Assembly: GCA_963565915.1 (NCBI GenBank)
Contig: OY751489.1
Coordinates: 2,914,001 to 2,978,000, forward strand
Source: Entoloma clypeatum
Lineage: Eukaryota; Basidiomycota; Agaricomycetes; Agaricales; Entolomataceae
DNA length: 64,000 nucleotides
Direction: 5' to 3'
Shown here: positions 2,649 to 58,301 of the stretch, one piece after another
Position numbering within the stretch: position 1 is the stretch's first letter
Layout: each line of letters opens with the position of its first letter
Notes under the pieces: model-generated
Seen by the model: only the letters and a program-made list of their open reading frames with translations
What the model was told of the DNA's origin: nothing
Database searches by the model: none
Made by a program: the position numbers and the translations under genes

Positions 2649-3168
2649 TGTCATGACCATACGATATTCATCCGACTTATCCGACGACTCCGACGATTCC
2701 TCCGATCCGACATCCGCTCTGACAACATTCTATTTATGTTTGATTATACTTCTACTACGTAACATTTCAACCATACTTACAAGTAAACATATGTTGTTCA
2801 CTTTTCATTTGTTACTCTCTGTACTCCGAATGTTCCGATGGTCAACTCTGATATCTACACATCACTTATGGTAATACTGATCATTCTAGTTTACTATAAA
2901 TAGTGTACCAAACCTGTCGTAGAACCTCAGTTCAAATATCATACATTACACCTCCGAGCATTCTCTTCGTCACATCCACTCATCCGCTCTTCCGCTTATC
3001 CGACATCCATCAATCCAAAATCAAGGACCACATCAAAGAGTGGGGCGCAACACACAAGTTGAAGCCAGGTCCTTTCCACCAGACGTCGCATCTGTCGCAT
3101 CCACTCCTCCGCTACTCTGCTCCGACTCATCCGACGTTTTCCGACGTTGAGAAATACGCTACGTGACA
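2649..3168 (+). repeat. Gypsy-1 copy A 5' LTR
   Basis: 520 bp, TGTCATGACC at the start and ACGTGACA at the end. It is 24 bp shorter than the 3' LTR because a segment near 2950 (GCATCCACCTCC region of the 3' copy, about 9575-9600) is missing. It contains a TATAAATA box (2895-2902) and many TCCGA/TCCGC repeats. Confidence 0.92.
2895..2902 (+). promoter_or_regulatory. TATA box of the Gypsy-1 LTR
   Basis: TATAAATA, also present in the 3' LTR at 9517-9524 and, on the other strand, in both LTRs of copy B. It probably marks the U3/R promoter for gag-pol; the start site is inferred, not seen. Confidence 0.6.
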
Positions 3169-3219
3169 GTATATTTGAACTACCACCATTCTTTGATTTA
3201 CCAAACAACCTCTACCCAC

Positions 3220-4484
3220 ATGTCTCAAACCCGTAATACAGTTTGAACAACTAGGACTGCTCATGCAGCAGCAGAACGTTCATCATCCACACCACGCTCT
3301 GCTTTCCTTCGAGGAACCCGCAATGTAACCATTACTCCTCAAGGAGCCACAGCATCAACCACCGCTCCTACCCCCGGACCATCTGTTCCTCCACTTCCTT
3401 CCAGTCCTCCAATCCCACCAACGGAACCCTCCGCACCCCCTAATTTTGGCATTTTCAGCAGGTCTCCAGGAGGATCTCCTCCTCCCTCCGACCCTAGTTT
3501 ACATGGGGATTTGGACGACTCCGATTCCAATCCAGATCAGGAACCCAATCTAGCTGAAGCCATTATGCTTATGACCAAAGAGTTGAAACATCATGACACA
3601 AAGAAGAAAAAGTTGTATGCCAACGAACCGGATACCTTCAACGGATCCAATCCGCGCAAACTCTCCGCATTCATTCTACAATGCAAACTCTACTTCGCTG
3701 ACAATGACAATTTCAACTCCAAACATTCCAAAGTCAACTTTGCCATGTCCTACTTCCGAGGCACAGCACTCGACTACTTTGAACCCTTCATCCTTGACGA
3801 CAAAGAACTCAAATGGCGGGGTTCTTTCCCCGACTTCATCCAACTTCTCCACTCTGAGTTTGGTACCATTGATCCTGAGGGAGAAGCCAAAGAACAATTG
3901 GACAACCTTCGGATGAAGGAAAACCAAAAGATTCTAAAGTACAACGTTGAATTTTCCAATGTCTGGCTACCAAGACTGATTGGGATGAAAACTCCCTTCA
4001 ACACCGTTACTACGTCGGACTCCTGGATCGGATCAAGAACGTCCTCTCGCAACAGCCTAAGATCAAGTCCTTGTCAGACTTGCGATCTACGGCTCAAACC
4101 ATTGACGCTCGCTACTGGGAACGTCAACAAGAGAAATCCAGAACCGATAAAACCGCACCCAAGTCCGACAAAAAACAATCCACTCCGAACCAGTCCACTG
4201 CACAAACATCACCAATGAAACCCTCCGCTCCTGCTACCACTTCCGCTTCCACATCCGCTCCGAAACCCGACCTCTCCAGTAAATTAGGCAAAGACGGCAA
4301 ACTAACGTATCAAGAATGCAAATGTTGTTTCAATAATAACCTTTGCTTATTCTGTGGTAGCGTCGGACACGCTGTCAAGGACTGCCCCAAGTCCACCTCC
4401 TCCACTTCCAAGGCTAAAGGGAAGGCCGCCCAAGTCGGCACTCAAGCCAAGGAAAAAGGTAAGGAGATCAAGTCAAAAAAATAG
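3220..4484 (+). pseudogene. Gypsy-1 copy A gag (broken)
   Basis: Starts MSQTRNTV. A TGA at 3244-3246 replaces the Arg codon CGA that copy B still has. The frame then continues through a Pro/Ser-rich N-terminal region and the capsid-like segment (FRGTALDYFEPF, EQLDNLRMKENQKI) to about 3951. There copy A has two extra T residues (ATTTTCC against ATTCC in copy B), shifting the frame; the second part, 4071-4484, carries a CCHC zinc knuckle (CLFCGSVGHAVKDC) and a Lys-rich tail ending in SKK-stop. Gag packages the element RNA. Intact comparison: copy B, 428 aa. Confidence 0.9.
4475..4481 (+). promoter_or_regulatory. Putative -1 ribosomal frameshift site between gag and pol (copy A)
   Basis: Seven A residues in the phase A-AAA-AAA lie immediately before the gag stop TAG (4482-4484). 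A -1 slip leads directly into the pol frame (ATA GGC AGT). The same arrangement is present in copy B. This is the classical X-XXY-YYZ layout; a downstream structure was not evaluated. Confidence 0.65.
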
Positions 4485-7400
4485 GCAGTGGTCCTCATGA
4501 AGCATGGTCTGAGGACTGCGTTGACTCTCTCCGTGCCTCCGCTCCCATCCAACTTAACGCGTCTGCTCTCTCCAATCTGAACTCTTTACGTATCAATATC
4601 TCATCTTCTTTTTTCTCTTCAGATTCTGTCCCAGCACTTGTTGATTCAGGATCTACCCACTGTTTTATTGACAATAACTTTTCCTCCGCTTATGATCTTC
4701 CGACCTCCGCTATTCCACCTTTAGAACTAAAGCTTTTCAATGGTTCTTCTAACATGTTTATCACTCAAGTTGTAACAATACCTATATGTTTTCCTTCAGG
4801 TAAATCTTTTGAACAGGATTTTTATGTTACTCCGCTTGACTCCGCTTCTTCCGTGGTTCTTGGATACAACTGGCTCACCCGCCACAATCCTATGATTGAC
4901 TGGGTATTGGGCAGTATCACTTTCCGTCCACAGATGCAAAAAGAGCCGTTTCCAACATCAACGTCGACACCCTCCCAAGGCAGGACAGCTACGCTTCCTC
5001 CTCCGGAACCTCCGATCGTACCTCCGCAGATTTCACTCATTAATGCAGCCACATTTATGAGGGCATGCAAATTGCCTGGTACACAATCCTTTCAACTTCA
5101 CCTTTTGACTCCCTCCATTTCCACTCACTCCGCATCCACTTCCGACACCCCCAACTTGACAAACGTGCCTGAGGAATACCACGACTATGCTGATGTCTTC
5201 AGAAAACGAAAAGCAGACACACTTCCACCACACCGTCCTTACGACCTCAAGATCAAACTCGAAGAGGGCTCCACTCCCCCGCTCGGTCCGATCTACTCCC
5301 TTTCACAAACCAAACTCCATGCCCTCTGTGAATTCATTGATGAACACCTCACCATTGGATTCATCCGACCCTCTTCCTCTCCGCACGGCACTCCTGTCCT
5401 TTTCGTTCGTAAAAAGGATGGCTCCCTTTGTCTTTGCGTCAATTTCTGTGGTCTTAACAAAATCTCAAAGAAGGACCGATATCCGCTTCCGCTCATATCT
5501 GACCTTCTCCAGACCGCCGGAAAAGCCAGTGTTTATACGGCTCTCGACCTCCGACACGCCTATCACCTCGTCCGCATAGCGGAAGGAGATGAATGGAAAA
5601 CTGCCTTCCGCACGCGCTATGGGTCTTTTGAATGGCTTGTCATGCCTTTTGGACTCACCAACTCTCCAGCCGTCTTTCAACGCTTCATGAACAACATCTT
5701 CCATGACTTGCTCAATAAGTATGTCACCATATATCTTGACGACATCCTCATCTACTCCGACTCTCCATCCAAGCATAAGAAGCACGTCCGTGAAGTTCTC
5801 CGACGGCTCCGACAACATGGTTTATACGTGCGCGCAGACAAATGCGAGTTTTCTATGGACACTGTTGAATACCTTGGCTTTATCCTCTCTCCGACCGGCC
5901 TCCGCATGTCGGATAAGAAAGTCAAAATTATTCAAGACTGGCCTGAACCAAGGAAGGTCAAAGATATTCAATCTTTCCTTGGGTTTGCCAATTTTTATTG
6001 TCAATTCATTCCTTACTACTCCGAAATCACTGTTCCGCTCACCCGACTCACCTGCAAAAACACACAATGGCACTTCTCCGACTCCGCTCGTGAATCTTTC
6101 AACACCTTGAAGAAAGCCTTCACCACGGCACCTGTTCTTACGCATTGGATTCCTGACAGCCCTATTATCGTCGAAACTGATGCCTCCGACTACGCTTTGG
6201 GTGCGATCCTCTCCATCCGCACCTCCGACAACGAAATCCATCTGGTCGCTTTCCACTCCCGCACCTTTACACCTCCCGAGTTAAATTATGACACCCACAA
6301 CAAAGAACTATTAGCAATCCATGATGCATTCAAGGTTTGGCGTCACTACCTTGAAGGCTCTGCTACTCCGATCGATGTCATAACGGACCACAAAAATCTT
6401 GAGTACTTTTCTACTACCAAGGTTTTATCACGTTGACAAGCTCGTTGGTCCGAATACCTTTGCCAGTTCAACCTCGTCATCCGCTTCCACCCTGGCCATT
6501 TGGGTACGAAGCCCGATCTTTTAAGTAGACAATGGGACGTCTACCCTAAAGAGGGAAATAGCAACTATTTGTCCGTCAATCCAAGCAACTTCAAACCCAT
6601 CTTCACCCAAGAACAGCTCACGACTTCACTTCACGCAACAGAGTTATATATGCCCGTCCTCCGTGCCACAATCATTATGGATACGGATCAGCTCCGGTCC
6701 AACATCCTCTCCGCTCTTCCGACCGATCCCATTTATACCTCTTTCCTCGACAATCCTAATCCACGCTGGATCGTGAATGAAGCAGGTTATCTACTCCACA
6801 ATGGACGTATCTACGTTCCCAACTCATCCAACCTCTGTCTCTGCATCCTCCGCAATAAGCACGACCATATCCTCGCTGGACACCCTGGTCAAAATAAGAC
6901 TATTAGTCTTATCCAACGAGAATACACTTGGCCTGGAATGCGCGACTTCATCAAAAAGTATTGCAAGTCATGTACCACTTGTATGCGCGCTAAACCCCAA
7001 CGTCATAAACCTTACGGTCTGCTTAAACAACTATCTATCCCTGAATGTCCCTGGCATTCCATTTCCATGGACTTCATTGAACCCCTTCTGACATCCGCTG
7101 GCTCCGATGCAATTTTGGTCATTGTAGACCGCCTCACTAAACAAGGCATCTTCATCCCTACCACCATTAATTGCACATCTGAAGACCTAGCAAACCTTTT
7201 CATGCTTCATGTCTTTTCCAAGCACGGAGTTCCGCAAAATGTCACATCCGATCGCGGACCCAAATTTGTCTCCCGTTTTTTCCACTCTCTTGCAAAAGCC
7301 CTCGACATGAAGCTTCATTTCACTTCTGGATATCACCCTGAAGGCGATGGTCAAACTGAATGCACCAACCAGACACTTGAACAATACCTCCGCATCTTCT

Positions 7401-8146
7401 GCAACTACCAGCAAGACAACTGGTCCGCTTTGCTTCCGCTTGCGGAGTTCACTTACAACAACACTCCGAGTGCCACTACTGGTGTATCACCATTCTCCAC
7501 CAACAAAGGTTATCATCCCGACATTACACTTCATCCAGAACGTGATCTAGCATCCGATAAAGCTCGACAATATATCGTCGACTTAGATGAATTACATCAA
7601 GAACTAAAGACTGCTGTCGCAGAGGCACAACAACGTTATCAAGGCCCTGCAGACATCCGACGGTCTCTGCCTCCTCCGCTCCTCATCGGACAAGAAGTCT
7701 TTGTTAAAGCCAAGTTCTTCCGCACCACACGACCCACCCAAAAACTATCCGACAAATATGCTGGCCCATTTGAAATCATAGCCCAACCCGGCACACACTC
7801 CTTTACACTATGTCTACCCGACACCATGCGTGCTATACACCCCATCTTCCACATATCTATGCTCGAACCAGCAACTCCCAACAAGATTCCGAATCGGATA
7901 CAATCTCCTCCGCCTCCGCTCAAGATCGAAGGAGAATCCAAATACGAAATTGCAGAAATTGTCGACTCAAAGATCGATAAAAGACGACAATGCAAACTCC
8001 TCTATCTCATCCGCTTATTAGGTTATGAAGACACCAGTGAAGAGTTTTCTTGGTTACCCGCATCCAAGCTTGAACACACAGCGGATATGGTAGCGGACTT
8101 CCACTCCGCTCAACCAACTAAGCCAGGCCCCTTATCGCGCTTGTGA
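4482..8146 (+). pseudogene. Gypsy-1 copy A pol (protease-RT-RNase H-integrase-chromodomain), one nonsense codon
   Basis: The pol frame runs from the slippery site. Protease: ALVDSGSTHCFID (about 4630-4675). Reverse transcriptase: VRKKDGSL, HAYHLVRI, MPFGLTNSPAVFQ and the catalytic YLDD (about 5730). RNase H: VETDASDYALGAIL and HNKELLAIHDA. A TGA at 6434-6436 interrupts the frame where copy B has CGA; reading resumes in the same frame. Integrase: an HHCC zinc domain (AGHPGQNKT, CKSCTTCMRAKP), then the D,D,E core (SMDFIEPL, TSDRGPKFV, EGDGQTE). The C-terminus carries a chromodomain (YEIAEIVDSKIDKRR, LGYEDTSEEFSWLPASKL) that probably directs integration to heterochromatin. Everything needed except the stop codon appears present. 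Confidence 0.93.
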
Positions 8147-8197
8147 CAAGAAGAAAAGAAAAAATCTATTGAATATTTTTATACTAACAAGAAACTA

Positions 8198-9139
8198 CTA
8201 CTTTTGTTGTTTCTTGTTAGCTACCCCCTCTGCTTCCTCCATCCGCTTCCTCTTCTTCGTTTCTTCTTCTTCTTCTTCTTCTACCTCCTTTGCCAACTCC
8301 TCCAATATCCTATCATATTCCTCCGCATCCTCATCCTCATCGGATCCCTCCTCTGAAAGCTCTGCATCCTCCGCATTCTCCTTGTACGCAATAACCGTTA
8401 AGAGATCCGTGATCTCTCTTAACCCCCACATTTCCTCCTTCATCAAATGCACCTCCCTCACTATGTTTTGAAGTGCCCTCACCACTGCCAACCCGATCTG
8501 CACCTCCGGCAGACCAAACCCCTCCGGCATGACCTCTGGTTCCTCCGACGCTGCGGCCATCCGTGATCCCTCTGCGGTCCCCTCTCCCTTGGACAATCCT
8601 GCCTTCGCGTTCTTCATCACACCACCTGCCACCTTGGTCTTTCCAATCCTCACCGCCTTGGTCATCCTCCGCTTCACCTCCGACTCCACTTCCACTCCCG
8701 TTCTGCAGCTTTGTTTTAAACGCTGGCACCGCCAGCATGACGAAGCATTGTCATCTCTAAAGAATGAGTTAATAACAAAGTGTTATTAAGGAATAGAGAA
8801 AACTTACTCCGATGGCCAAAAACACAAATCTCCCGTCTTCAAGCAGGAGGTACAAACCTCGCTCCCCTGTTTGTAACTTGCAGGCATGTCCTTGTACACT
8901 CCCTGCATCTTGACCGCCTTCACCTCCGCATCCGCATCCGGCTCCTTTGCCTTTTCCTTCTCCGCCTTCCTCTCTGCTTGCTTCCGCTCTTTCGCCGCCC
9001 TTTTTGCCTCAATGTGTTCTGCTTCCTCCTTCGCGCGCTCCTCTGCCTCCTGCAGTTTCGCCTCCAACTCCTCAGTGATTTTCTTTTGGCGCTCCCTTTC
9101 AGCACGGAGAGCGGCAAGGGGCGAGTTCTCAGCGGACAT
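8198..9139 (-). CDS. Antisense gene of Gypsy-1 copy A: spliced Zn2Cys6-like coiled-coil protein
   Basis: Lies between pol and the 3' LTR on the strand opposite to gag-pol. Exon 1 is 9139-8808 and exon 2 is 8756-8198; the 51-nt intron has GTAAGT and TTTAG ends and joins the frames as Glu-Asp-Asp, giving 296 aa. Exon 1 encodes a charged helix (LAALRAERERQKKITEELE, then Lys/Glu/Ala-rich) ending in Cys-x2-Cys-x6-Cys. Exon 2 starts with a second Cys-x2-Cys-x6-Cys (CWRCQRLKQSC); 11 residues separate the halves, so the spliced product fits Zn2Cys6 spacing. A basic stretch, a hydrophobic helix (about 8440-8470) and a Glu/Asp-rich tail with KKRKRMEE follow. The start MSAENSP is chosen because copy B shares it; an upstream Met (9199) is possible. 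Function is unknown; DNA or chromatin binding is an inference. Confidence 0.75.
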
Positions 9140-9270
9140 AGCGGATAGGCGACGGGATAGATGTTGTCGTTGGGTGACAAGAGAGAAAAAATCATGCACA
9201 AGCTTTTCAAACCAATGGTCATGTGGATTACCTCATTGGTCCTCAGGGTTCGGCCCTAAGAGGGAAATAC

Positions 9271-9814
9271 TGTCATGATCATACAATATTCATCCGACTT
9301 ATCCGACGACTCTGACAATTCCTCCGATCCGACATCCGCTCTGACAACATTCTATTTATGTTTGATTATACTTCTACTACGTAACATTTCAACCATACTT
9401 ACAAGTAAACATATGTTGTTCACTTTTCATTTGTTACTCTCTGTACTCCGAATGTTCCGATGGTCAACTCCAATATCTACACATCACTTATGGTAATACT
9501 AATCATTCTAGTTTACTATAAATAGTGTACCAAACCTGTCGTAGAACCTCAGTTCAAATATCATACATTACACCTCATTCGCATCCACCTCCATTGCCTC
9601 CAAGCATTCTCTTCGTCACATCCGCTCATCCGCTCTTCCGCTTATCCGACATCCATCAATCTGAAATCAAGGACCACATCAAAGAGTGAGGCACAACACA
9701 CAAGTTGAAGCCAGGTCCTTTCCACCAGACGTCGCATCTGTCGCATCTGCTCCTCCACTACTCCACTCCGACTCATCCGACGCCCCCCGACGTTGAGAAA
9801 TACGCTACGTGACA
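9271..9814 (+). repeat. Gypsy-1 copy A 3' LTR
   Basis: 544 bp, TGTCATGATC to CGTGACA, preceded by the purine-rich AAGAGGGAAA and followed by AAGTG. The antisense gene starts 132 bp inside the element from this LTR, so the LTR (reverse orientation) or the adjoining sequence probably supplies its promoter. Confidence 0.92.
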
Positions 9815-9819
9815 AAGTG

Positions 9820-10253
9820 CTCCAAAGCGACTCCGATGTCGGACAACTTGCAAGGGAAATCCAAAGTTAAATTAGACTCTACAAAGTACAATACGAGGCG
9901 TACCTTGCAAGGAAAATCCAAAGAGAAAGTTCTGAGGATTCCCTTGCAAGCTAGACAGCTATATAGACGACGAGAATTGGAAATGAGAAGAGGAATGTTG
10001 AAATACGACAAAGATTGGGAGTAGGAATGGGAATGGAATATGTAAATCGGAAGTGTGCATGTGGTGGTATAAATCATTGCTCCGACGTGCACTATTGTTG
10101 GAGGTCGGAGGTGTTGAAAGATAGATGGAAATGAAAGGAAACGAAAAGTATAGTAATATAAGTAATAGACGTACCACAACAGTTGGAGGGTCAGAGGATG
10201 GGTTGGAGGTGTCGGAGGTGTCGGACTGAGGAAATCGGATGGTTGCCCTTACA
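9820..10253 (-). repeat. Gypsy-2 3' LTR, right part
   Basis: Continues the LTR begun at 2612, matching 16097-16551, and ends GGTTGCCCTTACA. Within it, two stretches of CTTGCAAGG(G/A)AAATCCAAAG occur about 60 bp apart, as in all full Gypsy-2 LTRs here. Confidence 0.88.
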
Positions 10254-10264
10254 TTACCCCCCTT

Positions 10265-13200
10265 CTAAGGTGCGGCGTCTCGACACGCAAGGCGGAATGT
10301 ACAGGACTTGAAGGGAGTTGCAGCAATTCGACATGGAGCTCCCGGGTGTCGGCGGTAAAATTCCCGGACCAGGTGCAGAGCGTGGACATCCTCCTCCGTC
10401 TCCCATGAGTTTTCCTCGTAGCCGTACCCCTTCCACTTGACTAGGAACTGCAGCTTGCCTCGTTGAAGCCGACTGTCCAAGATTGTTTTGACTTCATATT
10501 CCAATTCTTCTCCAACTGCGGTCGGAGGCAGAGGGATTTGGACATCTTGTCGGAAGGGGTCTTCTGGAGCCAGCGACAGTTTTACAACATGGAATACGGG
10601 GTGAATGTGAGACATGGAAGGAGGGAGTTTGAGTTCATACGCATGCGTTCCAACAGGTCAGACAACTGGAAACGGGCCTACATATCTATGAGCCAGTTTT
10701 TTGGTTGGTCGGGTGGTTTTGAGGTTGGAGGAATCCAGAAAGACCTTGTCACCCAGTTGGAAGGTTGGAGTAGATGTCCGACACTGGTTGTAGTACTGCG
10801 CCATGTTGTCTTTGGCCTTTCCCAAAGCTGCTTGTGCTTCCTCCAATGTGGACTTCATCTGCTTGCCGAACTCCTCCACCGCCTCGATCTCCAATGGTCT
10901 TTGTCAGGGCTCAAAGCCCATACGTGGGTGACATCCACTGTCGATGTAGAAGGGGGTTTGGCGCGTGGACACGTGGACATGGTTATTGTATGAAAACTCC
11001 ACCATCGGAAGCCATTCGTGCCAATCATCCTGTCGTTCGTTAACGAACAGTCGGAGGTATTGTTCCAATCCCTGGTTCACATGTTCCATCTGTCCATCCG
11101 ACAGCAGATGGTAGGCCGTCGAGGCAGCAACCTTAGCCTATACAATTCCCGTGTGAACTTGGCGACGAACTGTGGTCCTGTAAGGGCAACCATCCGATTT
11201 CCTCATCTTCCGATTTCCTCAGTCCGACACCTCCGGCACCTCCAGCACCTCCGACACCTCCGACTATCCTCCGACCCTCCAACCATTGTGGTACGTCTAT
11301 TATTTATATTACTATACTTTACGTTTCCTTTCGTTTCCATCTATCTTTCAACACCTCCGACCTCCGACAACCTCCAACCATACTCCGGGTTGGAGTGCAC
11401 ATCGGAGCGATGCTTTATACCACCACATGCACGCTTCCAATTTACATATTCCATTTCCATCCCTACTCCCGATCTTTGTCATACTTCAACATTCCTCTTC
11501 TCATTTCCAACTCTCGTCGTCTATATAGCTGTCTAGCTTGCAAGGGAATCCTCAGAACTTTCTCTTTGGATTTCCCTTGCAAGGTACGCCTCATATTGTA
11601 CTTCGTAGAGTCTAATTTAACTTTGGATTTCCCTTGCAAGTCGTCCGACGTCGGAGTCGCTTCGGAGCACTTCAGAGTTGTCGGATCGTAAGGTTGCCCT
11701 TACAGGTCCGCGATCGGAGACAATGGCCTCCGGAAGACCATGCAGCTTCCAAACATGTTGAACATAAGATTTCACAGACCCAAGGGCGGAGAGAGCGGAG
11801 TGCGTCGGAATGAAGTGTCCGTGTTTCCCAACTGAGTCTACTACTACCATGATAGTGTCGTATCCATGGGCTTCTGGTAGTTCAGTGATAAAATCAACAC
11901 TAGTTACCTGCCACCGTTCCAATGGAACTGGGAGCGGATGGAGTTCGCCAGAGGGTGCGGAGCGTCAGACCTTGGTGCAGAGGCAGGGGTCGCAAGTTTT
12001 GCAATACTGACCAATTAAGTGTGCCATGTGGGGCCACCAATAAGTGCGCAATACCAACTCTAGAGTCTTCCAATGTTCTGGGTGTCCAACCACCGGGTTG
12101 TCGTGATGTTGCGTGATGATTTGCTGTCGGAGTTGCGGGCTGTTGGGCATGTAAATGTGATCTCGAAAGTACAGTAAACCCTCCGACTGTCACCATTCCG
12201 CTCCGCGGACGGAGGCAGCTCCGACTGTCGGAAGGGATTTGATTACCTCTGCTATGCTATCCTCTAGAAGGCCATCGCGGATGCCCTGTCGGACCTGTCA
12301 GAGGATGTTGCGCTCCTCACCTTGAATGGCTACTCCCCGAGTGGCCCGTATGGCAAACAGCTCCGGTTGGAGTAGGACTATGTCCTCGTTGTCCCATGAG
12401 CCATCTCCGTGGTCCGCCCTGTGCAACAATGTGTTGGACTTCCCCATCTACTTGCCTGGCCAATGGTGCATCTTGAAATCGAAACGCGCTAGGTATAGAG
12501 ACCACCGTGCTTGTCGCCGATTGAGCTTCTGGGCGGTCATGAAGTATTCGAGGTTTTTGTGATTGGTCCAAATTTCCACCGTCTTCTCCGCTCCTTCAAG
12601 GAAGTGTCTCCATTCCTCCAGCGCGCGGATTACGGCCAGCATCTCCTTATTGTGAATTTTGTAGTTGCGTTCCACTGGGCTAAGGCTTTTGGAATAAAAT
12701 GTGACAGGGTGCCACTTACCGTCCTCTGACGGTTGGGACAGTACCGCTCCGGTCGCAAAGTCAGAGCTATCCGCTTCAACTCGCCACTCCTTGCTGTGGT
12801 TGGGGAGGACAAGTATCAGAGCGGAGGTGATCCTCCACTTCAGACCTCTGAAGGCCTCTGCTTCCTTGTCGTCCCAGGACCATACACAGCCCTTGGTTGT
12901 GAGTCGGAACAAAGGACGCACAATGTCAGAGAAGCCTTGGATGAAACGACGATAGAAGTTAGTGAATCCAAGGAAGGACTGTACCTCCCACACGTTAGTC
13001 GGAGTCGGCCACTCCGCCACTCCGGCAATCTTGACAGGATCCATTTCCACACATCCTTTCTCAATAATAAGGCCAAGGTATTCGATCTGTGTCTGTTCGA
13101 ATTCACACTTCTCTGGTTTGAGATACAATCCATGTTGTCGGAGCCGCTCTAATACTATGTGTGTGATTCTCCGGTGCTCTGACAGGTCCGACGTGAAGAT

Positions 13201-14570
13201 GAGAATATCGTCGAGGTAAACACATATGCCACCTTCAGTAATAAGATCTTGTAGGATATTGTTCATCATAGTCTGAAAGGTTGAAGGGCTATTAGTGAGT
13301 CCGAAGAACATTACGAGGGGTTCGAAGAGCCCCCAATTTGTCCGAAAGGCCGCTTTCCATTCATCTCCGGGCTTGATTGTAGCCCCATCGGATGACGAGC
13401 TTGGTGAAGTATTGAGCATTCTGAAGCTTATTGACTAGTTCGGAGATGAGCAGAAGAGGGTACTTGTTCTTGATAGTCTTGGAATTGAGCAATCAATACT
13501 CCTGAACGAGTCAGAGGGAACTGTCCTTCTTCTTGATGAAAAAGACTGGGGAGGCCATCGGAGATTTTGAAGGTTGGATCCAACCAGTGGCCAGATTTTC
13601 TTCCAAGAATGCATTGAGTTCCTTCTGTTCCATCGGAGCAAGCGGATACACCTTGCAACCCGTCGGAGTTGCATTGGGGACCAGCTCAATGGCATGGTCC
13701 CATACGCGTTCCTCTGGCAGATTGTCGAAAGAGGTCTTAGAAAATACATCTTCAAAATCATATAAGTGATTAGGTACGGAGTCGCGAAAAGACTTGGGTT
13801 TTTGATTTTGGAGGAACACCTCCAATAAGCATTGTGAGGTAGTTGATGCTGCGCGAACAAATTCCAACATCGGAGGTAAGGCTCCGACGAAGAGGCGATC
13901 TCTGTCTTCAAACTCATCTTCTTCCTCTTCCTCCGCCTCATCTTCCAAAGGCTCATCCGACGATTGTTCTTCGTCCTCACTTACGTCTTCCACCCAAGGG
14001 CCTCGTGGGGCCTCCTCCGTTAATCCCGCATCCGGCGTCGGACCCATCTGACAAGTGCGGATACGTGCCTGCTCAAATTTGCGGATCTTCTGCTCCTGAG
14101 TGGCCTCCTGATGGCAAGTCCAACAACGAGCTGGACATCGACTCATTTTCACCTCCCCGGAGGTCCAATCTACCTCGGGATTGTGCTCCTTGAGCCACGT
14201 GAATCCAAGCACAATATCCTGCTTTCCCAGTCCAGTTACTGCGAGCTGGGTCCTTTCCGTGTGATCCTGATATTGGAGTATAACATCCAGGACCTCCAAT
14301 ATTGCTCCGGCGTCGTTCAGAGTACCATTGACATTGTAGACAGGGATTGCATGTTGTAGCCTTCAGGTACTGAGTCAATGTTTCTCTACCAAGGAGTGGT
14401 CAATGAAGGAGCCAGTCACTCCGCTATTGAGGAGAGCCTTTTGTGAAAGGGTATCCTTGGTATCCGTTGCCTCTCGAACAACATCTAGTTCAATAGCGTT
14501 GTCAGAGCCATCAGAGGCCAGGATGTATTTTTTCGGAAGTTGTTGTTCCCATTTTCGGAGTCAGGGTTGG
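10265..14570 (-). pseudogene. Gypsy-2 pol (protease to chromodomain), heavily broken
   Basis: Minus-strand order: protease near 14440 with NSG in place of the catalytic DSG (copy C retains LLDSGATGSFID); the linker and RT start at 14299-13511; RT with GDEWKAAFRT, LTNSPSTFQ and YLDD (13419-12448); RNase H (VEADSSDFATGAVLS, HNKEMLAVIRALEEW); integrase zinc domain (12150-11965, HHDNPVVGHPEH, CKTCDPC); catalytic core (11922 onward, DFITELP, IVSDRGP); then a solo LTR insertion at 11179-11704; then the rest of the core (GLEQYLRLFVNERQDDW) and a chromodomain at 10615-10265 (LEYEVKTILDSRL, LQFLVKWKGYGYEENSWE). Stops in the 13435-13510 segment fit CGA-to-TGA changes. Typical chromovirus layout; not functional. 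Confidence 0.88.
11179..11704 (+). repeat. Gypsy-2-family solo LTR inserted in the Gypsy-2 integrase
   Basis: 526 bp, TGTAAGGGCAACC to GGTTGCCCTTACA, in the opposite orientation to the host element's LTRs and flanked by a perfect 5-bp duplication GGTCC (11174-11178 and 11705-11709). The insertion splits the integrase right after the D-R-G-P motif. A TATATAG lies at 11522. The solo LTR implies a full insertion followed by LTR-LTR recombination. Confidence 0.93.
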
Positions 14571-14678
14571 GCAACTTTCAGAGTCAGGGTAGGTGTGACT
14601 GAGGGTTCATTCTGCGCCGAGTCATAGGGAGAAGAAGTAAAATCTGATTCATCTATAGACAAGGAAGCATAACGATTG

Positions 14679-15863
14679 CTAATGGACAACGAGGGCACAC
14701 TGTTCACAGGAAAAATCCTCTTGTTTGTCTTCCGCATGCTCCGACGCTCCGGCAACGTCGGAGATAGACGCCACTGCATCTTTAGCGGCTAGTTGGTCCA
14801 TTATATACTCCTCCTGTTTGTCCGACATCATGAATTGGACATCGAATCGGAGCGGACATTCACAACTGAAATGACCAGTCTTACCACATCTGAAGCATAC
14901 ATTGGCGTTCTTACCCCTGGTACGAGAGGCATTGATGTCCATCGCATTGGGGTCGCGGGGGGCCGGAGTCGGAGTAGCGACTGTCAGAGGTGCACGCGGA
15001 ATATAGGGGATGAATGGTCGGGGGAAGACAGATCCTGCTGCTGCCTTCGGTGCTGTCGGAGCAGCGCAGAAAGGGTTTGGACGTGTCGGAACGGTGGACT
15101 TGAACGCTTTATTTGCGATCCGATTATCATCATTGACTCGTGCGGCTGCATACCAAGCCTCTGGGTTGTCATCCGCGGGTTGTCCGAAAGTTAGTGTAGC
15201 AATTTTGGATTGGATGTCGGATCGGAGCCCATGTCGGAATTTGAGTACTATGTTTGTTCCTTCAGTGTACCCAGCCTTTTCGACATAATATTTGAAGTCA
15301 TCAATGTAAGCCTCCACATCTCGACTACCTTGGTAATAGGCCTCTCCTTCAAGAATGAGCCGTGCGTCTTGTTCTTCATTTTTTGGAGTGAACTCCGCGA
15401 TGAACGCGGTTCAGAACTGTACCCAGGTCTGGTGGCACGGAGCTCCGGTCCGATGCTCTTGTCAGATGACGCAGTTGGCGAAGCGTGCAGCGCGTCCACT
15501 CTTCATGAAGGAAAGCGCCCAATAGATCCTAGCATGATCATCTGCAAACTGTTCCGGGACCAGTCCCATATACAGTTCGCAAGAATTAAGGAAAGTCCAA
15601 CCAGTGGTACGCGCTCCGTCAAAGTCCGACAGAGTCGCAGGTTTGGCCCGACGTGCGCCTGGATTGGCAGGCGCAATCGGAGCTGGCGGAAAGGCCGGAA
15701 CTGGGGCCTCTGCTGGAGGTGGAATCGGATCGGGGTTGGGAATGGGAACAGGTGGAATAGCGGCGCGGATAAGTTGTTCGAGTTGAGCAGTAATGTTGGT
15801 GAGGGTCTGGCGGTGTTCCTGGAACTTGTGTTTGAGTGCAGCAAGATGTTCAGGGTCGTCCAT
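14679..15863 (-). pseudogene. Gypsy-2 gag, two nonsense codons in one frame
   Basis: A single minus-strand frame from MDDPEHLAALKHKF to a TAG at 14679-14681. It is interrupted only by TGA at 15462-15464 and 15411-15413; the second is CGA in copy C. The N-terminal helix and Pro/Ala-rich region (15863-15650) precede the capsid-like segment (DFDGARTTGWTFLNSCELY, FGQPADDNPEAWY). A CCHC zinc knuckle (CFRCGKTGHFSCECP) lies near 14870. The tail is Asp/Glu/Ala-rich. The pol region follows in another frame, as in copy C. Structural protein of the virus-like particle; not translatable as it stands. Confidence 0.88.
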
Positions 15864-16051
15864 TTCTACATGTGATATGGAGTCACCAGTTACAGAGTGG
15901 TAGGTGGAACAGTGGGAAGAGGGATCGGAAGGGGCGTCGGATGTACCGGAATTGGAGGAGGGCAGACTTGAGTCCGTGTCATCAACTCCAAAGCGCGGAA
16001 TGGCTTCAACGGTACAATTCGTACCTGGTCTGTTTAGAGAGAACTTTCTAC

Positions 16052-16551
16052 TGTAAGGGCAACCTTACAATCCAACAACTCCAAAGTGCTCCAAAGCGAC
16101 TCCGGCATCGGACAACTTGCAAGGGAAATCCAAAGTTAAATTAGACTCTATGAAGTACAATATGAGGCGTACCTTGCAAGGGAAATCCAAAGAGAAAGTT
16201 CTGAGGATTCCCTTGCAAGCTAGACAGCTATATAGATGATGAGAATTGGAAATGAGAAGAGGAATGTTGAAATACGACAAAGATCAGGAGTAGGGATGGG
16301 AACGGAATATGTAAATCGGAAGTGTGCATGTGGTGGTATAAATCATCGCTCCGATGTGCACTCCGACCCGGAGTACGGTCAGAGGTCGTCGGAGGTCGGA
16401 GGTGTTGAAAGATAGATGGAAACAAAAGGAAACGTAAAGTATAGCAATATAAGTAATAGACGTACCACAACGGTTGGAGGGTCGGAAGACGGGTCGGAGG
16501 TGTCGGACTGAGGAAATCAGAAGATGAGGAAATCGGATGGTTGCCCTTACA
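16052..16551 (-). repeat. Gypsy-2 5' LTR
   Basis: 500 bp, same orientation as the split LTR at 2612/9820, with the 13-bp terminal inverted pair TGTAAGGGCAACC / GGTTGCCCTTACA. The next bases to the right (ATTGT) begin the integrase of another element, not a duplicate of the left flank. Confidence 0.9.
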
Positions 16552-18754: not shown

Positions 18755-19103
18755 TGTTGAACATATCGCCAGATATGTCGCACTATGTGCTTGTCACAAG
18801 AAGTGACTATAAGTCACTATTACCATATATGTGAGTTTATGGTATAACCACGGACGAATGACTTGTTTATGTATTGTTTGTACAATGGTCCGTGCGCATA
18901 TTGGATTAGTATAAATACCCATGTATTTAGTACGATGAATCCTAACTTCTTGAACACCCCAGTTCTTTGAGTTAACTAACAAGCTAGTCCAGCTTCTAGA
19001 ATATCTTTAGTTACTCTTTACCAGGTTAGTGGAGCTTCCTTCATGCCTTCGTACCGTTACATCTTGAGCGCCCTTTGGGCTGCCTATGTCGGTTACTTTA
19101 TTA
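18755..19103 (+). repeat. Copia 5' LTR
   Basis: Starts TGTTGAACATATCGCC and ends TTTATTA, directly followed by the primer-binding site. It contains TATAAATA at 18910-18917. Confidence 0.93.
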
Positions 19104-19115
19104 GGTTATGGGCCC
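19104..19115 (+). promoter_or_regulatory. Copia primer-binding site, half initiator-tRNA type
   Basis: GGTTATGGGCCC directly after the 5' LTR. It is complementary, with one mismatch, to the anticodon stem-loop of initiator tRNA-Met (GGGCTCATAACC), as in Copia and Ty5 elements that use a cleaved tRNA half as primer. Match judged from memory of the tRNA. Confidence 0.6.
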
Positions 19116-19151
19116 CGGCCCTAGCGCCGCATGCTCTGAGTATCTTAGCTT

Positions 19152-19877
19152 TTGCGCTATTATTGGCAGCATCCGCTTTGTATGCTAGCCTGGAGACTGG
19201 TTTTCTCAGTATCGAATACATCGAGCTCAATGGTTCCCTTAACGGTGAACCTCGAAGTGTTCGAGGTATTGAATGCACCTTTCAGTGGGTCATTCTTGAT
19301 CGATTACTTGAGAATCCCTGTTACATTGATCGCATCACGAGAGCAAGTCCATATGGTGCCAACGGCACAGGGTTCAGTCCCTGCAGGTCATGATGACAAT
19401 GGACGCATCGTTGCACGTTGCGGGGTGTGTCGACAACTTGTTGTTGACAGTCAGCATTGCCCAAGGCATTGCATAGACAACACCACCTTTGACTACTCGT
19501 GTGCTACGTGTGATGCAGGAACAGCCAGGACTCGAGTTCTAAACCGCAGACGGCGTAATCGCCGTACTGAGGTACCTGTTGTGGTACCTACCCAAGATGG
19601 AGATCCCACGGATCCTCCGCCCATGTATGTTGATGATGGGACCATCCCTGAAGCACACGGGGCACCTCCTCTTTCGCCTCCGACCCGACAAGTTCGGTTG
19701 CCGGATAATGACTCCTTAATTGAAGCAGCGAACAGAGCGAATGAAGTCATGCTCCCTGTTCAGGGAGGATCTTGCACCTGTGGGCAACACAGCACTCAGG
19801 GCGCACATGACGATTGGATAGAATTAGTGATGGCATTTCATATGCTACCACTAGACCAAACAGGGAACGAAGAATGA
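19152..19877 (+). CDS. Extra ORF in the Copia leader, Cys-paired and Arg-rich, unknown function
   Basis: A 241-residue open frame between the 5' LTR and gag, where Copia elements normally have only a short leader. The first third is hydrophobic and may not be translated; a later Met (about 19353, MVPTAQGS) would leave the more protein-like part. That part has CGVCRQ, CPRHC and CATCDAG, i.e. three CxxC-type pairs that could bind zinc. A basic stretch RVLNRRRRNRR, a Pro/Asp-rich acidic linker and CTCGQHS follow. It ends 90 nt before the gag ATG, in the same frame. No family recognised; it could also be an inserted host gene fragment. Confidence 0.4.
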   Translation: MRYYWQHPLCMLAWRLVFSVSNTSSSMVPLTVNLEVFEVLNAPFSGSFLIDYLRIPVTLIASREQVHMVPTAQGSVPAGHDDNGRIVARCGVCRQLVVDSQHCPRHCIDNTTFDYSCATCDAGTARTRVLNRRRRNRRTEVPVVVPTQDGDPTDPPPMYVDDGTIPEAHGAPPLSPPTRQVRLPDNDSLIEAANRANEVMLPVQGGSCTCGQHSTQGAHDDWIELVMAFHMLPLDQTGNEE

Positions 19878-19967
19878 TGATCGACAAGGCAGCTCATATA
19901 TTTATTTTCTGATGCGCTTTTTCGATATTTCATATGCTGATTCTATTTATGTTTTACCAGCATCATC

Positions 19968-22900
19968 ATGTCTTCAAACTCGAAACTCGACCTCGCTTCC
20001 TCCATTCCCAAACTCACCACCACAAACTTCTCCATCTATCAGGAGAAAATGAGCGCCTACCTCAAGGCTGCTAAAGTGTGGAGGATCGTCACCGGTGATA
20101 AAAAGATTCCGGTTGACCCTAAAGAGACAGACTGAGCAGGACGATCAGGCCCAAGGCCTAATTCAGATGTCCATTTCGGACTCTCTCATCCATCACATCA
20201 AGGGAGCTAAAACCTCCAAGGAGATGTGGGACCTGATCGCTGTTAAACTGTCCACCGTCTTTGCTGATTTTCAGCAACTCCTCCGCACCTCTCTTTCTCC
20301 CGCCGATCCTTTATCTGGCATCGATAAGATGCAGACCCTTTTTCAACGACTCGAGCACAACCACATAGACATCCCCAAGTTCGTCCGGATCATGATGATC
20401 CTGAATGGACTGCCTCAAGGCTATGATGGTCTAGTACACAGCATCCTTTTTGATGCGGTACACTATGTGGCACCTAGTGGAGATCAATCCGCTGTACTCA
20501 AGATCGAGAAAGTAATCGAGCAAGTACGCTCAGAATACTTCCGTAAAAACCCGCACGCTCCACAGTCCCAAGGAAGCGCTCACGCAAACAAAATCTCTGC
20601 GGTAAAACGCGCTCGTCCTAACCCCCCGAAATACCAGCCTCGCACTGGACCTTCTCAGGGATCTTCGGAAGGACCGGCTGTTAACCAGCAGCATTTGCAT
20701 CAGCACTCCAAGCCCTGGAAAGGCAAGGGACGTGGAACTTCTGCCGGGAAGACCAAGGGCAAAGGACCCTGGAAAGGTAAAGAGAAGGCGCATTTTGCCT
20801 CCTCTGCCATGGATAGCGCCCCTGATGGGCAGCTCCCAATCCAGACCTTGCCCAACACGGTCATTTACGAAAATGGGTCTATCTTCACTCCGCACCCCTC
20901 ATCATCCACCGATTGGAGGATTAGGAACAACCAATCGCTTGCGATCGGTAATATTCCTGGCCCAGGCCCTTTCACGGACCTGGATGGAGCGCGCACACTG
21001 GCTAACAGCATTGGTGTCCCTCCAACAGCTCAGAATCTAACTCGCCTCGTCGAGGTTCCTGCGCTTCAACATAATGAAGCTGCAACGTCAAGGCCGCTCT
21101 CAGCGCCTCCGACAATGGACCCCCGGAATCACCGCATTCCGGTTTTCGAAGAAACGCCGAGTAGAATCAGCTGGGCTGATGAGATGGAGACAGAAGACAT
21201 AGCCCCCACCATAAGGGGCTATTACGATGAAGGATACGTCAATGACTATATGGAGTATGAAGTTTCCCGTGGTAATGGAAACAACGACGACATGGGGTAT
21301 GTTTCACATTCAAAAGCACGTACAATGCAGTTAACAAATACTTCACAGAAGCCTCTTTGGAGACGAGTGAATGGACGGCGGTCCAATGTATTTTTATCAT
21401 CTGCTGTACACGCGCTTATAGCGCAAATAAATTCTCATTATGTGAATTGTGCTGAATGTAAGAAACAGAATCAATCCAATTGGATTCTTGATTCAGGTGC
21501 ATCATTGCACTTTACTTATGATATCAATGATTTCATTGAGTATACCCCACTAAAAGATCGTCAATCTGTGCAAATTGCACAGAAAGGTCACACTATTCAG
21601 ATCCTTGGACAAGGGACGGTGTTGATTAATCACACCATCAAGAAAAACGGGAGAAAACAAAACAAAATAACTCGTCTATCACCCGTTTATTATATACCAG
21701 ATTTAGACGTTCATCTTTTATCTGTAGGCGAGATCCTTAAACAAGGAAATGAAATTAGCGGACGATTTGGTTCGATCACGCTAAAGACCAATTCAGGTCT
21801 TCCTTTGTTTATGTGTTATCCTCATAAGGCAAATGAATCGATTTATTGGCTAAACGCCATGATCATTAAAGAGGAACGAATACACTTGGTTAGTCTTAGT
21901 GTCTCACAGTCTGTTGATTATGACACTTGGCACAAGCGATTCGGACACCCTTCACATGAAGTACTGCGACATGCTTCTAAACATGTCAAAGGTTTCAATG
22001 GAGTGGACAAACTGTCCACTGAGCGACCCTGCAAAGGATGCGCTCTTGGAAAGATGCCTTCAAAATCTTTCCCACCATCTCAGACACGCGCTAAAGCACC
22101 TCTTGAGCTAATCCATTCGGATTTAAAGCAATTCAAGAAGGCGACTTATGACAAATATAATTATTATATCAGCTTTGTTGATGACTACACATCACACGCC
22201 TGGATCTCTTTATTGAGACTAAAATCTGATGCACACTCTGCACTTCGTGATTTTAATGCCATGGTTAAAAACCAATCCAATACGACAATTAAAACTTGGC
22301 GTTTTGATGGCAGCGGTGAGTTTGTCCCTTTCCAAGCAGATATGCGTGAGATGGGAATCCAGGGTGAAGTAACTGTGCCGCACCAGCCACAACAAAACGG
22401 TCGTGCAGAACGTTTCAACAGAACTTTAATGGATAAAGCACTTGCTATGTTGCATGATGCTTGCCTACCCGAAATATGGATTCAATTTGCGGTAGAACAT
22501 GCACTTCACTTGTATAACCGAACTCCATTGAAAAGACATGGATGGCTTACTCCGTATGAGTCCCTTAAAAAGGAAAAGCCTGATGTGTCGAACCTACACG
22601 TTTTTGGATGTGGTGCTTATGTCTTTCTTCCGAAAGAAGTTCGTACTACCACCGCTAAATCTGAGCTGATGATCTTCATCGGATTTAAAACTGGAACTAA
22701 AGGTTACCGGTTTATGCGGATGACAAACAACGTGGTCTTCATAGGTGTCACAGCAATGTTTGATGAACAGCTGTTCCCAAAATGTTCTACATTGAACAAA
22801 ATACCTTCGATAACACAGTACCATGATCCAACATCAGACGATATGGGAAACAATGATGCAAATGGACATGATGGCCCGTCTGATTTACCAACCGACGATT

Positions 22901-25110
22901 TCCATTCGGAAGACAATGATGCACATGGTCCTGGCGGTTCACATTACCCGTCTAATCCAGGAACCCATGATGACAATCATAACCTCCCTGATACAAATAG
23001 CGACCAAACTGGTCAGCTTCCCGAAGGTTCCAATCAGACTTCTGATGGAACAGACAGACAGGACACCGCTGAGAATCAGCAGTGGGTTCCCCGGACTCGC
23101 AATCCAGGGAAACGTGTGCGCATAGATGCACCAAACGATGATCGTACCTTACCAGGCGATTATCGTCCACAGACTGATCGTCCTCGTCGTACTCGGGTTA
23201 TACCCCAGCGTCCTGGAAATGTTTACGGGAATGACTCGGCTGAGGCCTTGCGTCAAAATCAGCGTGATTGGAGCAGAACCGTTCAGGAGGATTCATGGCG
23301 ATACGCCTATAATCCCCGATCGGAGACCAGACCCCAGCAATCTGGCGCTGTTCCATCAACTAGCTCTGCTGATCCTCAGATGTATCAGAACAATTCCAAT
23401 CCGAATTCGGATATAGATATGGAGGAATCACTCTATATTAGGGAAGGGGGAGGACAGTCACAAATGCTTGCGCACTTGCTATCTAAAGCAATCCCTGCAT
23501 ATGACGAAATTCCACAAGACCCAAAGTCTTGGCAAATGAAGGACATAAATGAGCTACCTGAAAAGGAAAAGCTTGAATGGAAAGCAGCATGCCGTGAGGA
23601 ACTAGAAGCCCTCCGGAAGCGCAATGTCTTTAAGTTGGTTGACCTACCTAAAGGTCGTAAAACCATCAGAAATTGATGGGTATTCGACGTTAAAACTGAC
23701 GGACGAAAGAAGGCACAACTCGTTGCCAAGGGTTTCTCACAGATCGAGGGTATCAATTTTGATGAGATCTTCTCACCTGTGATACGTTTCGAGACTATCC
23801 GGATCCTCTTCGCCGTAGCTGCGCTTGAAGGATGGGTGATTGAAGGAGTAGATGTCAAATCAGCTTTTCTCTATGGAGAGCTCGATGAAGAAATCTATAT
23901 GAATCAACCCGAAGGCTTTGTTGTCAAAGGCCAAGAACGGAAGGTCATCCATTTATTAAAAGCACTCTATGGCCTTAAACAGGCGGCAAGAGCGTGGTGG
24001 ATCGCGCTCAATGCATCAATGGAGAAGCTAGGTTTTACTCGCTGTAGAACTGACTCAGGCGTCTTTGTTTACCACAACAAACAATCAGGTGATTTAATAA
24101 TCGCTTTGATCTATGTTGATGACGGCCTGTTCATGGGATCAAACCCAGATCTTGTTCGCAAGATAAAATCTGACTTTAAAAATAAATGGGAAAGTCGTGA
24201 TCTTGGTATTGCTAAAGAATTCTTGCGTATGAGAATACGACAAGATTTGGAAAAGCAGATCGTAACAATCGATCAGTCAGAATACCTGAAGAAGATCATT
24301 AAGCGCTTTGGCTTAGAAAATGCAAAGGCTGCTGACACTCCACTCCCAAAGGGTTATTACCCTGCACCAAATAAGGGGGAGGTGGATCCCACACTCAAAA
24401 CAAGATACCAAATGATCATTGGATCGTTGTTGTACTTGTCCATTGGAACGAGACCGGACATTGCTTTTGCAGTTGCAAAAATGTCACAAATGTCTGCAAA
24501 TCCTTCCGAAGAGCATGAGAAATACACTCTACGGATTATCAGATATCTTGTCGGTACTCAAGACTATTCCATAGTGTATGATGGTCGATCCAAAGCTTCC
24601 TTTGAAGCATGGACAGATTCAGACTGGGCATCAGACCCATCTGATAGAAAGTCCCAATCGGGATATTTCCTTAAGCTTGCAGGAGGACTTGTTCTTTGGA
24701 AAAGTCGCAAGCAAAAAACAGTGGCACATTCTTCCACTGAGGCGGAAATGGTTGCTGCCAGTGAATGTTCGCGGGAATGCGAATGGGTTACTCATCTCTT
24801 CAGAGAACTTGGACTACAGGACATTACCAAAATGCCGTTCCATGTAGACAACCAAGGCGCGATTTTCAATGCGCAAAACCCAGTTACTGAAGGCAGAACC
24901 AAACATATAGCAATCCATCACTTTGCTATACGCAATAGAGTTCAAGATGGATTGATCGAACCAAGGTTCGTTCCGGGAACAGAAAATCTGGCTGATATGT
25001 TTACCAAGCCACTTGGTCGCCAGGAATTTGAGAAATTCCATGCTCTACTCCGAATGGAGTTTAAAGAGCCTTATACTCCACTTACGAAACCTACCAGGGA
25101 TTCTAAGTGA
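19968..25110 (+). pseudogene. Copia gag-pol, one frameshift and one TGA
   Basis: Starts MSSNSKLDLASSIPKL at 19968. A single-base shift near 20130 moves the frame to the one that runs to 25110, interrupted only by TGA at 23674-23676 (between KTIRN and WVFDVKTDG; fits CGA to TGA). Gag has the UBN2-like region (ALGLIQMSISDSL-type) and a Lys/Gly-rich tail rather than a CCHC knuckle. Protease: WILDSGASLHF (about 21480). Integrase: YDTWHKRFGHPS, C-x2-C in CKGCALGKMPSKSF, then the core HSDLKQF, DGSGEF and GRAERFNRT. RT: SAFLYGELDEEIYMNQPEGF, YGLKQAARAWW, YVDDGLF. RNase H: TDSDWASDPSDRKSQSGY, STEAEMVAASE, LADMFTKPL. All catalytic residues are present. Confidence 0.93.
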
Positions 25111-52149: not shown

Positions 52150-52280
52150 GTATTTCCCTCTTAGGGCCGAACCCTGAGGCCCAGATGAGGTAATCCACGT
52201 GACCGTTGGTTGAAAAGCTTTGTGCGTGATCTTTCTCTCTTGTCACCCAACCACAACATCTATCCCGACGCCTATCCATT

Positions 52281-53257: not shown

Positions 53258-53301
53258 TTTTTTGTTAGTATAAAATTTTAATAGATTTTCTTTTCTTCTT
53301 G

Positions 53302-58250: not shown

Positions 58251-58301
58251 GTGGGTAGAGGTTGTTGGGTAAATCAAAGAATGGTGGTAGTTCAAATATA
58301 C

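Follow-up and report, generated by a model that had tools for sequence, protein, structure and literature searches.

Antisense genes between pol and the 3′ LTR have been described before, both for plant elements and for Boty, an element of fungi, whose gene is called brtn. In Boty of Botrytis cinerea/Sclerotinia sclerotiorum, brtn is described as an extra antisense gene located between pol and the 3′ LTR (PMC7264820, PMC8365987, PMC4227169, PMC5987419). The corresponding genes of plant Gypsy elements (aORF-3R) are described for Grande (gene23), RIRE2, Retand (TRP28) and PvRetro13; gene23 is reported to encode a nuclear protein and to have a promoter upstream of the gene (PMC7264820, PMC11963269). 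In HTLV-1, the antisense 3′-end gene hbz is driven by the 3′ LTR, has spliced and unspliced forms and encodes a nuclear bZIP-type factor (PMC10186651). For the ORF3 genes of bdelloid LTR elements, expression from spliced messages is stated (PMC5408684). VANC21, from a VANDAL transposon of Arabidopsis, is reported to bind a motif that its transposon carries in dense arrays of a single orientation (PMC5735166).

The gene analysed here resembles brtn of the chromodomain element Boty in being an extra antisense gene that separates pol from the 3′ LTR in a fungal Ty3/Gypsy element, here one probably of the chromodomain type (PMC7264820, PMC8365987, PMC4227169). The host of brtn is however an ascomycete, and the comparison was made by description, the passages on brtn in these papers making no mention of an intron. 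A preliminary description of the locus knew of no antisense gene with this protein in fungal chromoviruses; an antisense gene at this place is, however, already known from Boty (brtn; PMC7264820, PMC8365987, PMC4227169). The plant aORF-3R genes are likewise antisense, lie between pol and the 3′ LTR and are kept by most copies (PMC7264820, PMC11963269). They differ in belonging to plant elements, with Retand in a non-chromovirus lineage, and in their TRP28/SMC domains. The word ‘intron’ does not occur in the main text of PMC7264820 or PMC11963269. As in hbz, the gene is antisense and placed at the 3′ end, and here splicing and a drive from the 3′ LTR are probable; hbz differs in being retroviral, in its bZIP protein and in its TATA-less, Sp1-dependent promoter, and to our knowledge has no six-Cys cluster. 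The word ‘antisense’ was absent from the Laccaria transposon survey (PMC3411680) and from a fungal co-option screen (PMC10799480), and was found in the Ectocarpus survey (PMC12477816) at four unrelated places or small-RNA passages. In the open-licence PMC papers listed, neither titles nor abstract openings reported an antisense gene of a basidiomycete LTR element that is both spliced and of the six-Cys type.

Gypsy-1 copies and the antisense gene in the window

The window is the whole stretch of DNA analysed (64 000 nucleotides of Entoloma clypeatum contig OY751489.1). It contains a complete Ty3/Gypsy copy (Gypsy-1 copy A, 2649-9814) with the 5-bp duplication AAGTG on both sides. The features referred to below are as follows.

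2649-3168, plus strand: 5′ LTR of copy A, preceded by AAGTG at 2644-2648
3247-4484, plus strand: gag of copy A in two frames (3247-4218 and 3951-4484, frameshift), with a CCHC-like knuckle under the Pfam cut-off
4463-8146, plus strand: pol of copy A, with a stop codon inside at 6434-6436
8198-8756, minus strand: exon 2 of the antisense gene and its stop, with the last three Cys (CWRCQRLKQSC), a basic stretch, a helix, an acidic tail, KKRKR and NKKQQK
8350-8530, minus strand: variable helix cassette of exon 2, an identity dip against three other family A copies
8757-8807, minus strand: intron of the antisense gene, 51 nt, phase 2, with a TTAAC branch-like word and an in-frame donor stop if unspliced
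8808-9139, minus strand: exon 1 of the antisense gene, with an N-terminal coiled-coil-like region and the first three Cys (CTSCLKTGDLC)
9271-9814, plus strand: 3′ LTR of copy A, followed by AAGTG at 9815-9819
9352-9360, minus strand: antisense TATA-like box in the 3′ LTR of copy A, CATAAATAG, about 220 nt before the gene ATG
9517-9525, plus strand: sense TATA box in the 3′ LTR of copy A, TATAAATAG, diverging from the antisense box
9815-16551, minus strand: neighbouring second Gypsy element (Gypsy2), with LTR-like repeats at about 9815-10253 and 16084-16551 and an inverted piece at 11209-11672
19000-25110: Copia-type element, split by one stop codon, with an RVT_2 match inside
51603-58819, minus strand: copy B, the second Gypsy-1 copy, with LTRs 98.1% identical and flanks without matching duplication
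52281-53257, plus strand: antisense gene in copy B, intact, 308 aa (exon 1 52281-52612, intron 52613-52662, exon 2 52663-53257)

The LTRs of copy A (520 and 544 bp) differed by substitutions at 4.2% of 520 aligned sites, or by 8.3% when gaps were counted. Its pol gave Pfam matches to protease, RT, RNase H, integrase and SH3. The chromodomain-like end of pol in this decayed copy was below threshold for PF00385 (E 3.7e-4, 20.8 bits, cut-off 25.1). PF00385 was carried by P0001, the closest pol relative listed, and by many others of the listed relatives; the organisms named among the 120 listed were Pisolithus, Trametes and Cyclocybe, which would make an agaricomycete host likely. The gag of copy B encodes 451 aa. 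The 3′ end of copy A abuts exactly the LTR of Gypsy2, an element which has no room behind pol for an antisense gene. Elsewhere in the window, a 358-aa ORF (61852-62928, minus strand) resembles by eye a Tc1/mariner-type transposase.

The gene model of the preliminary description, i.e. two minus-strand frames joined in correct phase into 296 codons through a 51-nt GTAAGT...TTTAG intron, was exact to the base. Removal of the intron at 8807-8757 (phase 2) joins exon 1 (9139-8808, 332 nt) to exon 2 (8756-8198, 559 nt) and gives 296 codons and a stop. The distances that it had given, about 130 bp from the 3′ LTR and 51 bp from the end of pol, were measured as 131 bp (from the ATG to the LTR start at 9271) and 51 bp (from the gene end to the pol stop at 8144-8146). 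If unspliced, the frame ends at the donor stop, which in copy A leaves a product of 111 residues with half a cluster. Other splice joins across the gene give shorter products (227-290 aa), some of them without Cys3 or without the second half-cluster.

Each LTR in the window has the sense box TATAAATAG and, 165 bp away on the opposite strand, the antisense TATA-like box. The antisense box reads TATAAATAG in 20 of 21 compared copies and CATAAATAG in copy A, which is therefore without a perfect box; conservation of the TATA boxes among related copies is partly due to shared descent. In the whole window, TATAAATAG occurs six times against 0.17 expected by shuffling, all six inside the LTRs of copies A and B, and shuffles yield a TATA box about 2% of the time. 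Three loci of family B and two of family C (these sister families are presented below) had no TATA[AT]A in the 400 nt ahead of the gene. In family C, the ATG of a long frame (MEDREK...) is 26 nt from the putative LTR edge, as judged by comparison with family A, so that a message with this ATG would have to begin in or beside the LTR. A bacterial-type promoter scan of the LTR was uninformative for a fungal host.

Conservation of the gene and counterparts in sister families

The gene was compared in 41 family A copies (copy A, copy B and 39 loci fetched from the 60.08-Mb genome of 20 contigs). Apart from copy B, these are the 40 scored of 149 candidates of a DNA search, a set biased to good copies. 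The ATG, the GT/AG signals and a TTAAC branch-like word near the 3′ splice site were each present in 41/41 copies, as were the intron and an in-frame TGA/TAA at the donor. Exon 1 had 13 different lengths (323-383 nt), all of them 2 mod 3, and the intron was 49, 50 or 51 nt long and variable in sequence. An ORF of more than 280 codons was kept in 33/41 copies; in two of these (L043 and L044) the C-terminus is shifted, which leaves 31/41 canonical copies. A spacing of CX2CX6CX(9-13)CX2CX6C was found in 40/41 copies, the exception being L016.

Synonymous change prevailed. The gene of copy A gave dN/dS values of 0.22-0.27 against 32 others, at dS of 0.40-0.60. Among the family A gene pairs with dS above 0.03 (337/528), the median dN/dS was 0.31 and the maximum 0.82. 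In seven test pairs, the frame of the gene was the only one free of stops, with a dN/dS of 0.22-0.27; the remaining frames gave 0.73-1.77, except for the sense frame sharing codon position 3 (0.32-0.37). A gene on the opposite strand was considered and rejected: this sense frame has stops, and its low dN/dS is read as a shadow. For the preliminary description, a lack of synonymous excess among Gypsy-1 homologues would have spoken against the gene; the comparison was run and the excess was found. Pol was under tighter constraint in four pairs of intact copies (dN/dS 0.12-0.13 against 0.33-0.42 for the antisense gene).

A chance ORF was ruled out by the invariant splice signals, the frame-keeping lengths of exon 1 and the dN/dS values; start, splice signals, donor stop and exon-1 phase do not vary across the 41 copies. 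The first claim of the preliminary description, a real intron-bearing protein gene antisense to gag-pol, thus draws support from splice signals, frame and purifying selection, and we regard the antisense gene as almost certainly a real spliced gene.

Attachment of the gene to the element was analysed from pol ends, for which the best 150 of 2220 candidates were scored; 95 of those listed had at least 79% identity and were assigned to family A. Antisense exon 2 was found downstream of 91 of these 95 pol ends, within 150 nt for 89 of them, and a same-orientation exon 2 behind none (0/95). No gene was present within 1.5 kb behind the other four, one of which has it at a distance of more than 6 kb. 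At G000:C5:2087832-2095466, the pol end belongs to an open 1231-aa frame and the nearest accessory gene is more than 6 kb further; from the coordinates alone, it looks as though another element had inserted between pol and gene. Among the merged exon-2 places, 34/125 had no listed pol end (best 150 of 2220 pol candidates scored). Searches with exon 2 gave, fragments included, 138 matches for family A, at least 152 for family B and at least 151 for family C. The gene had been presented as a feature of copy A; it is indeed present there, but its distribution is far wider and covers three element families. Three loci (L020, L023 and L024) have LTRs 100% identical with matching 5-bp duplications, and in each of them pol is open over 1231 aa, a 453-aa frame has the size of gag, and the antisense gene encodes 322 aa. 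The gene therefore travels with recently moved elements. The features of aORF-3R genes were all found, i.e. antisense position to gag-pol between pol and the 3′ LTR, retention by most copies and constraint at the protein level.

Two more families (B and C) were marked by pol ends at 72-74% identity. Downstream of pol, five of the six loci of these families that were opened first showed an intron-split antisense gene in the equivalent position, and the sixth (L051) a remnant. Gene models were obtained for 16/19 family B loci and 16/21 family C loci. The model search imposed the six-Cys pattern and an intron of 42-70 nt, and the counting set further imposed an MSA/MLA start (B) or an acceptor ending in TTAG (C); since the pattern was required, the presence of six Cys in 16/16 models of each family is not independent evidence. 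The AKKAKTQ end was reached in 9/16 C models, the rest running off the fetched piece or being truncated or shifted. Intron phase was not imposed by the search and was 2 in 16/16 B and 16/16 C models. The intron lies four codons past Cys3 in B and C, and five codons past it, also in phase 2, in 40/40 patterned family A copies; from one family to another the intron thus shifts by no more than one codon, and it always separates Cys3 from Cys4. Median dN/dS was 0.39 in B (81/120 pairs, dS above 0.05) and 0.31 in C (117/120 pairs).

In profile comparisons (hhalign), the Cys regions aligned with E values of 1.7e-8 (A-B), 2e-4 (A-C) and 4e-4 (B-C), and the best E values of reversed-profile controls were 0.24, 0.025 and 0.004, respectively. 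The A-B match is therefore firm and the B-C match weak by sequence alone, so that the links of family C lean mainly on position, intron and layout. No alignment of weight was obtained beyond the Cys region. The proteins have a common layout: a coiled-coil-like start, the split six-Cys cluster, a basic stretch, a helix-like part, an acidic tail and a basic end (NKKQRK in A, NKKQRTK in B and AKKAKTQ in C). Comparison of the three element families showed the A, B and C genes to be, by these features, counterparts with the same intron. We regard the antisense gene as a genuine accessory gene, with splicing, of a fungal Gypsy lineage that is probably of the chromodomain type.

The protein and its variable helix cassette

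Zn2Cys6 (Zn_clus) proteins have the spacing CX2CX6CX5-12CX2CX6-8C, carry their basic residues in the cluster's first half and, as a class, recognise CGG triplets. The antisense protein has the same general arrangement, CX2CX6CX(n)CX2CX6C, and the spacing in copy A (CX2CX6CX11CX2CX6C) falls within that of the class. However, of the four proteins compared with PF00172 (Zn_clus), two from A and one each from B and C, none matched it at E<=5. In all three families, moreover, Lys and Arg are abundant in the second half of the cluster instead of the first; Zn2Cys6 is therefore a resemblance only. An intron between the two halves and a coiled-coil-like part ahead of the cluster are further differences. 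Of the Zn2Cys6-like cluster proposed in the preliminary description, the spacing was retained and the class membership was not; the coiled coils it mentioned are plausible by eye in the N- and C-terminal parts, which are coiled-coil-like.

The A, B and C proteins had no Pfam match to bZIP, TRP28 or SMC domains. Searches of Pfam and PDB gave no relative of the antisense protein, with weak low-complexity matches alone. Among 5.8 billion proteins, no relative was obtained with a four-sequence alignment as the query (7999 candidates scored, E<=0.01) or with the exon-2 core (259 candidates, E<=1); a control pol query on the same proteins, with 7994 candidates scored, recovered 1911 relatives at E<=1e-10. 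Viral contigs gave 146 pattern matches and no relative, and phage records no relative. This result may reflect a restriction to the lineage, or spliced antisense genes left uncalled in the source annotations.

In a structure prediction of exon 2 alone (mean pLDDT 64.7), the variable cassette was modelled confidently as a single long helix. In 150-nt windows, identity of copy A with three other family A copies fell to 65-69% centred on 8425 and 75-78% at 8500, against 80-97% elsewhere in 7600-9775. The dS of copy A to L020 was 0.79 in the cassette block and was also raised, to 0.48, in the first 131 codons. Loci L049 and L050 (B1 and B2) matched at 93-100% in windows of 150 nt along the fetched pol end, the gene and the LTR side, but identity fell to 65-70% in a stretch of about 300 nt of exon 2 that follows the Cys cluster; the cassette difference was seen in the comparison of L049 655-1591 with L050. 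Between these two loci, dS was 0.84 in the cassette (dN/dS 0.35) against 0.075 before and 0.14 after it. On the simplest reading, recombination of an old, selected segment would explain the cassette. Between copy A and L020, dS was 0.44 over the whole gene (8198-9139) and 0.15 over a pol fragment (6437-8143); this difference of about three times suggests that copy A may be a mosaic element.

Oriented TCCG motif and possible functions

An excess of TCCG(A/C) on the element-sense strand was found in copy A (2649-9814), copy B (51603-58819), L020 and L048-L053, and spans LTRs, gag, pol and the antisense gene. Copy B has 147 TCCG against 37 expected (z 21) and 28 CGGA against 23; family B and C loci gave z values of 9-12 for TCCG. 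The 62 TCCG sites in pol of copy A are distributed over the codon frames as 23, 19 and 20. Its antisense gene contains, in the orientation of the element, 16 TCCG against 3 CGGA, with 12 of the 16 in one frame of the unspliced span. By synonymous shuffling, TCCG was in excess in an intact copy for pol (88 against 45.6, z 9.5) and for gag (26 against 15.1, z 4.5; CGGA 11 against 6.2). For the antisense gene, the values were 30 against 23 in L020 (z 2.7), 16 against 13 in copy A (z 1.3), z 2.7 in the B gene and z 2.1 in the C gene, where the opposite orientation was also in excess (7 against 2.6, z 4.1). No TCCG excess was found by shuffling of one Copia and two host ORFs, nor in the Copia segment and 25 kb of other window sequence. 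In Gypsy2, TCCG/CGGA was enriched on both strands and one of three ORFs showed an excess by synonymous shuffling (z 3.4); since this element is motif-rich and has no room for such a gene behind pol, a strict one-gene-one-motif link is weakened.

The TCCG sites of L020 are most often spaced 8 or 9 nt apart. Triple-motif arrays with 8-nt spacing occur 975 times genome-wide, against 11 for the reversed pattern. On contig C1, 47/72 arrays are within 8 kb of an A, B or C match (9.7% of the contig, overlapping matches counted singly), and 46 of these 47 point with the element. CpG decay was considered as a cause of the motif, and the strand asymmetry speaks against it. Between the intact copies L020 and L026, 172/184 TCCG were kept, and 82-87% of the other CpG words (Fisher tests in the two directions, 4e-5 and 0.006, with words that overlap and are not independent). 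In three comparisons involving L010/L015, retention was 0.87 against 0.81, 0.86 against 0.85 and 0.90 against 0.88; with such small differences, the support from retention is weak. The motif may be a target or a signal of the accessory protein. As for VANC21, a short motif is dense and in one orientation within its own element (PMC5735166). VANDAL is however a DNA transposon with a mainly non-coding motif, whereas here the excess includes the coding parts, gag and pol among them, and binding is putative.

The following mechanism is proposed. The 3′ LTR would act as a two-way promoter, from which the antisense gene would be transcribed towards pol, and splicing would unite the two half-clusters into a six-Cys domain. 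The antisense intron would ride through retrotransposition, since replication copies the sense RNA, in which it is no splice substrate. The protein would enter the nucleus by means of its KKRKR/NKKQRK ends, pair through its coiled coils and bind nucleic acid of its own element, most likely at the oriented TCCG/CGGA motifs; once bound, it would activate or unsilence the element's own copies. The link from a six-Cys cluster to CGG-type sites would be that of Zn2Cys6 proteins, among which Pfam does not place this one. We see about an even chance that the antisense protein is a self-directed nucleic-acid-binding regulator, with binding and expression both inferred, and propose only tentatively that TCCG is its target.

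Binding of the element's genomic RNA, for packaging, nuclear export or protection and with the sense TCCG as an RNA signal, would agree with a motif specific to the element-sense strand even inside the antisense gene, and with pol sites about equal over the codon frames, as for an RNA-borne signal. This role is nevertheless judged unlikely, as Gag already has its knuckle-like CCHC motif (below the cut-off) and as the KKRKR/NKKQRK ends with an acidic tail are commoner in nuclear DNA-acting proteins. Same-orientation arrays are, moreover, also reported for a DNA binder, VANC21 (PMC5735166). The gene could also act on the host (e.g. on host silencing proteins) and not on the element, TCCG then having another cause; Gypsy2 has the motif and no room for the gene, and a fast-diverging, exchanged helix cassette would suit a changing protein partner. 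The arrays of contig C1 are however tied to the carrier elements and their orientation, and the Copia segment and 25 kb of other sequence are free of the excess, and we find such a role quite improbable.

Restraint of the element by its own protein (copy-number control), as with known retroelement self-inhibitors, would be conceivable insofar as an antisense product of the same LTR could compete with sense transcription, and antisense retroviral proteins can oppose sense transactivators. Antisense transcription is reported to be independent of, or inhibited by, Tax and Tat (PMC10186651). But copies whose LTRs are 100% identical have the gene intact, and three families retain it; the fastest spreaders would lose a pure restraint, and there is little to recommend this role. 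That the functional product is the antisense RNA itself (dsRNA or a silencing trigger), with an incidental ORF, recalls the non-coding antisense transcripts reported for other retroelements (PMC7264820). It is extremely improbable in view of the purifying selection seen in the protein frame, the frame-keeping exon-1 indels in 41/41 copies and the conserved splice sites and donor stop.

In its complete form, the reading as a self-directed regulator is speculative and falls well short of being probable. The gene and the element-wide oriented TCCG(A/C) would form a two-part self-recognition system, in which a spliced antisense protein with an exchangeable cassette would find its own copies by motif density and keep them transcribed against host silencing. 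The motif would have built up to the point of influencing which codons are used in gag, in pol and even in the antisense gene, and Gypsy2 would exploit it in trans as a free rider. By this reading, fungal Gypsy elements would have, as retroviruses do, an antisense gene resembling a regulator, for which a candidate target motif is available. The function of antisense accessory genes of LTR elements becomes directly testable, as binding or not to TCCG arrays. Retrotransposons lose introns on copying; here an intron-bearing gene has been retained in no fewer than three element families, probably because its coding strand is not the one that is copied as message.
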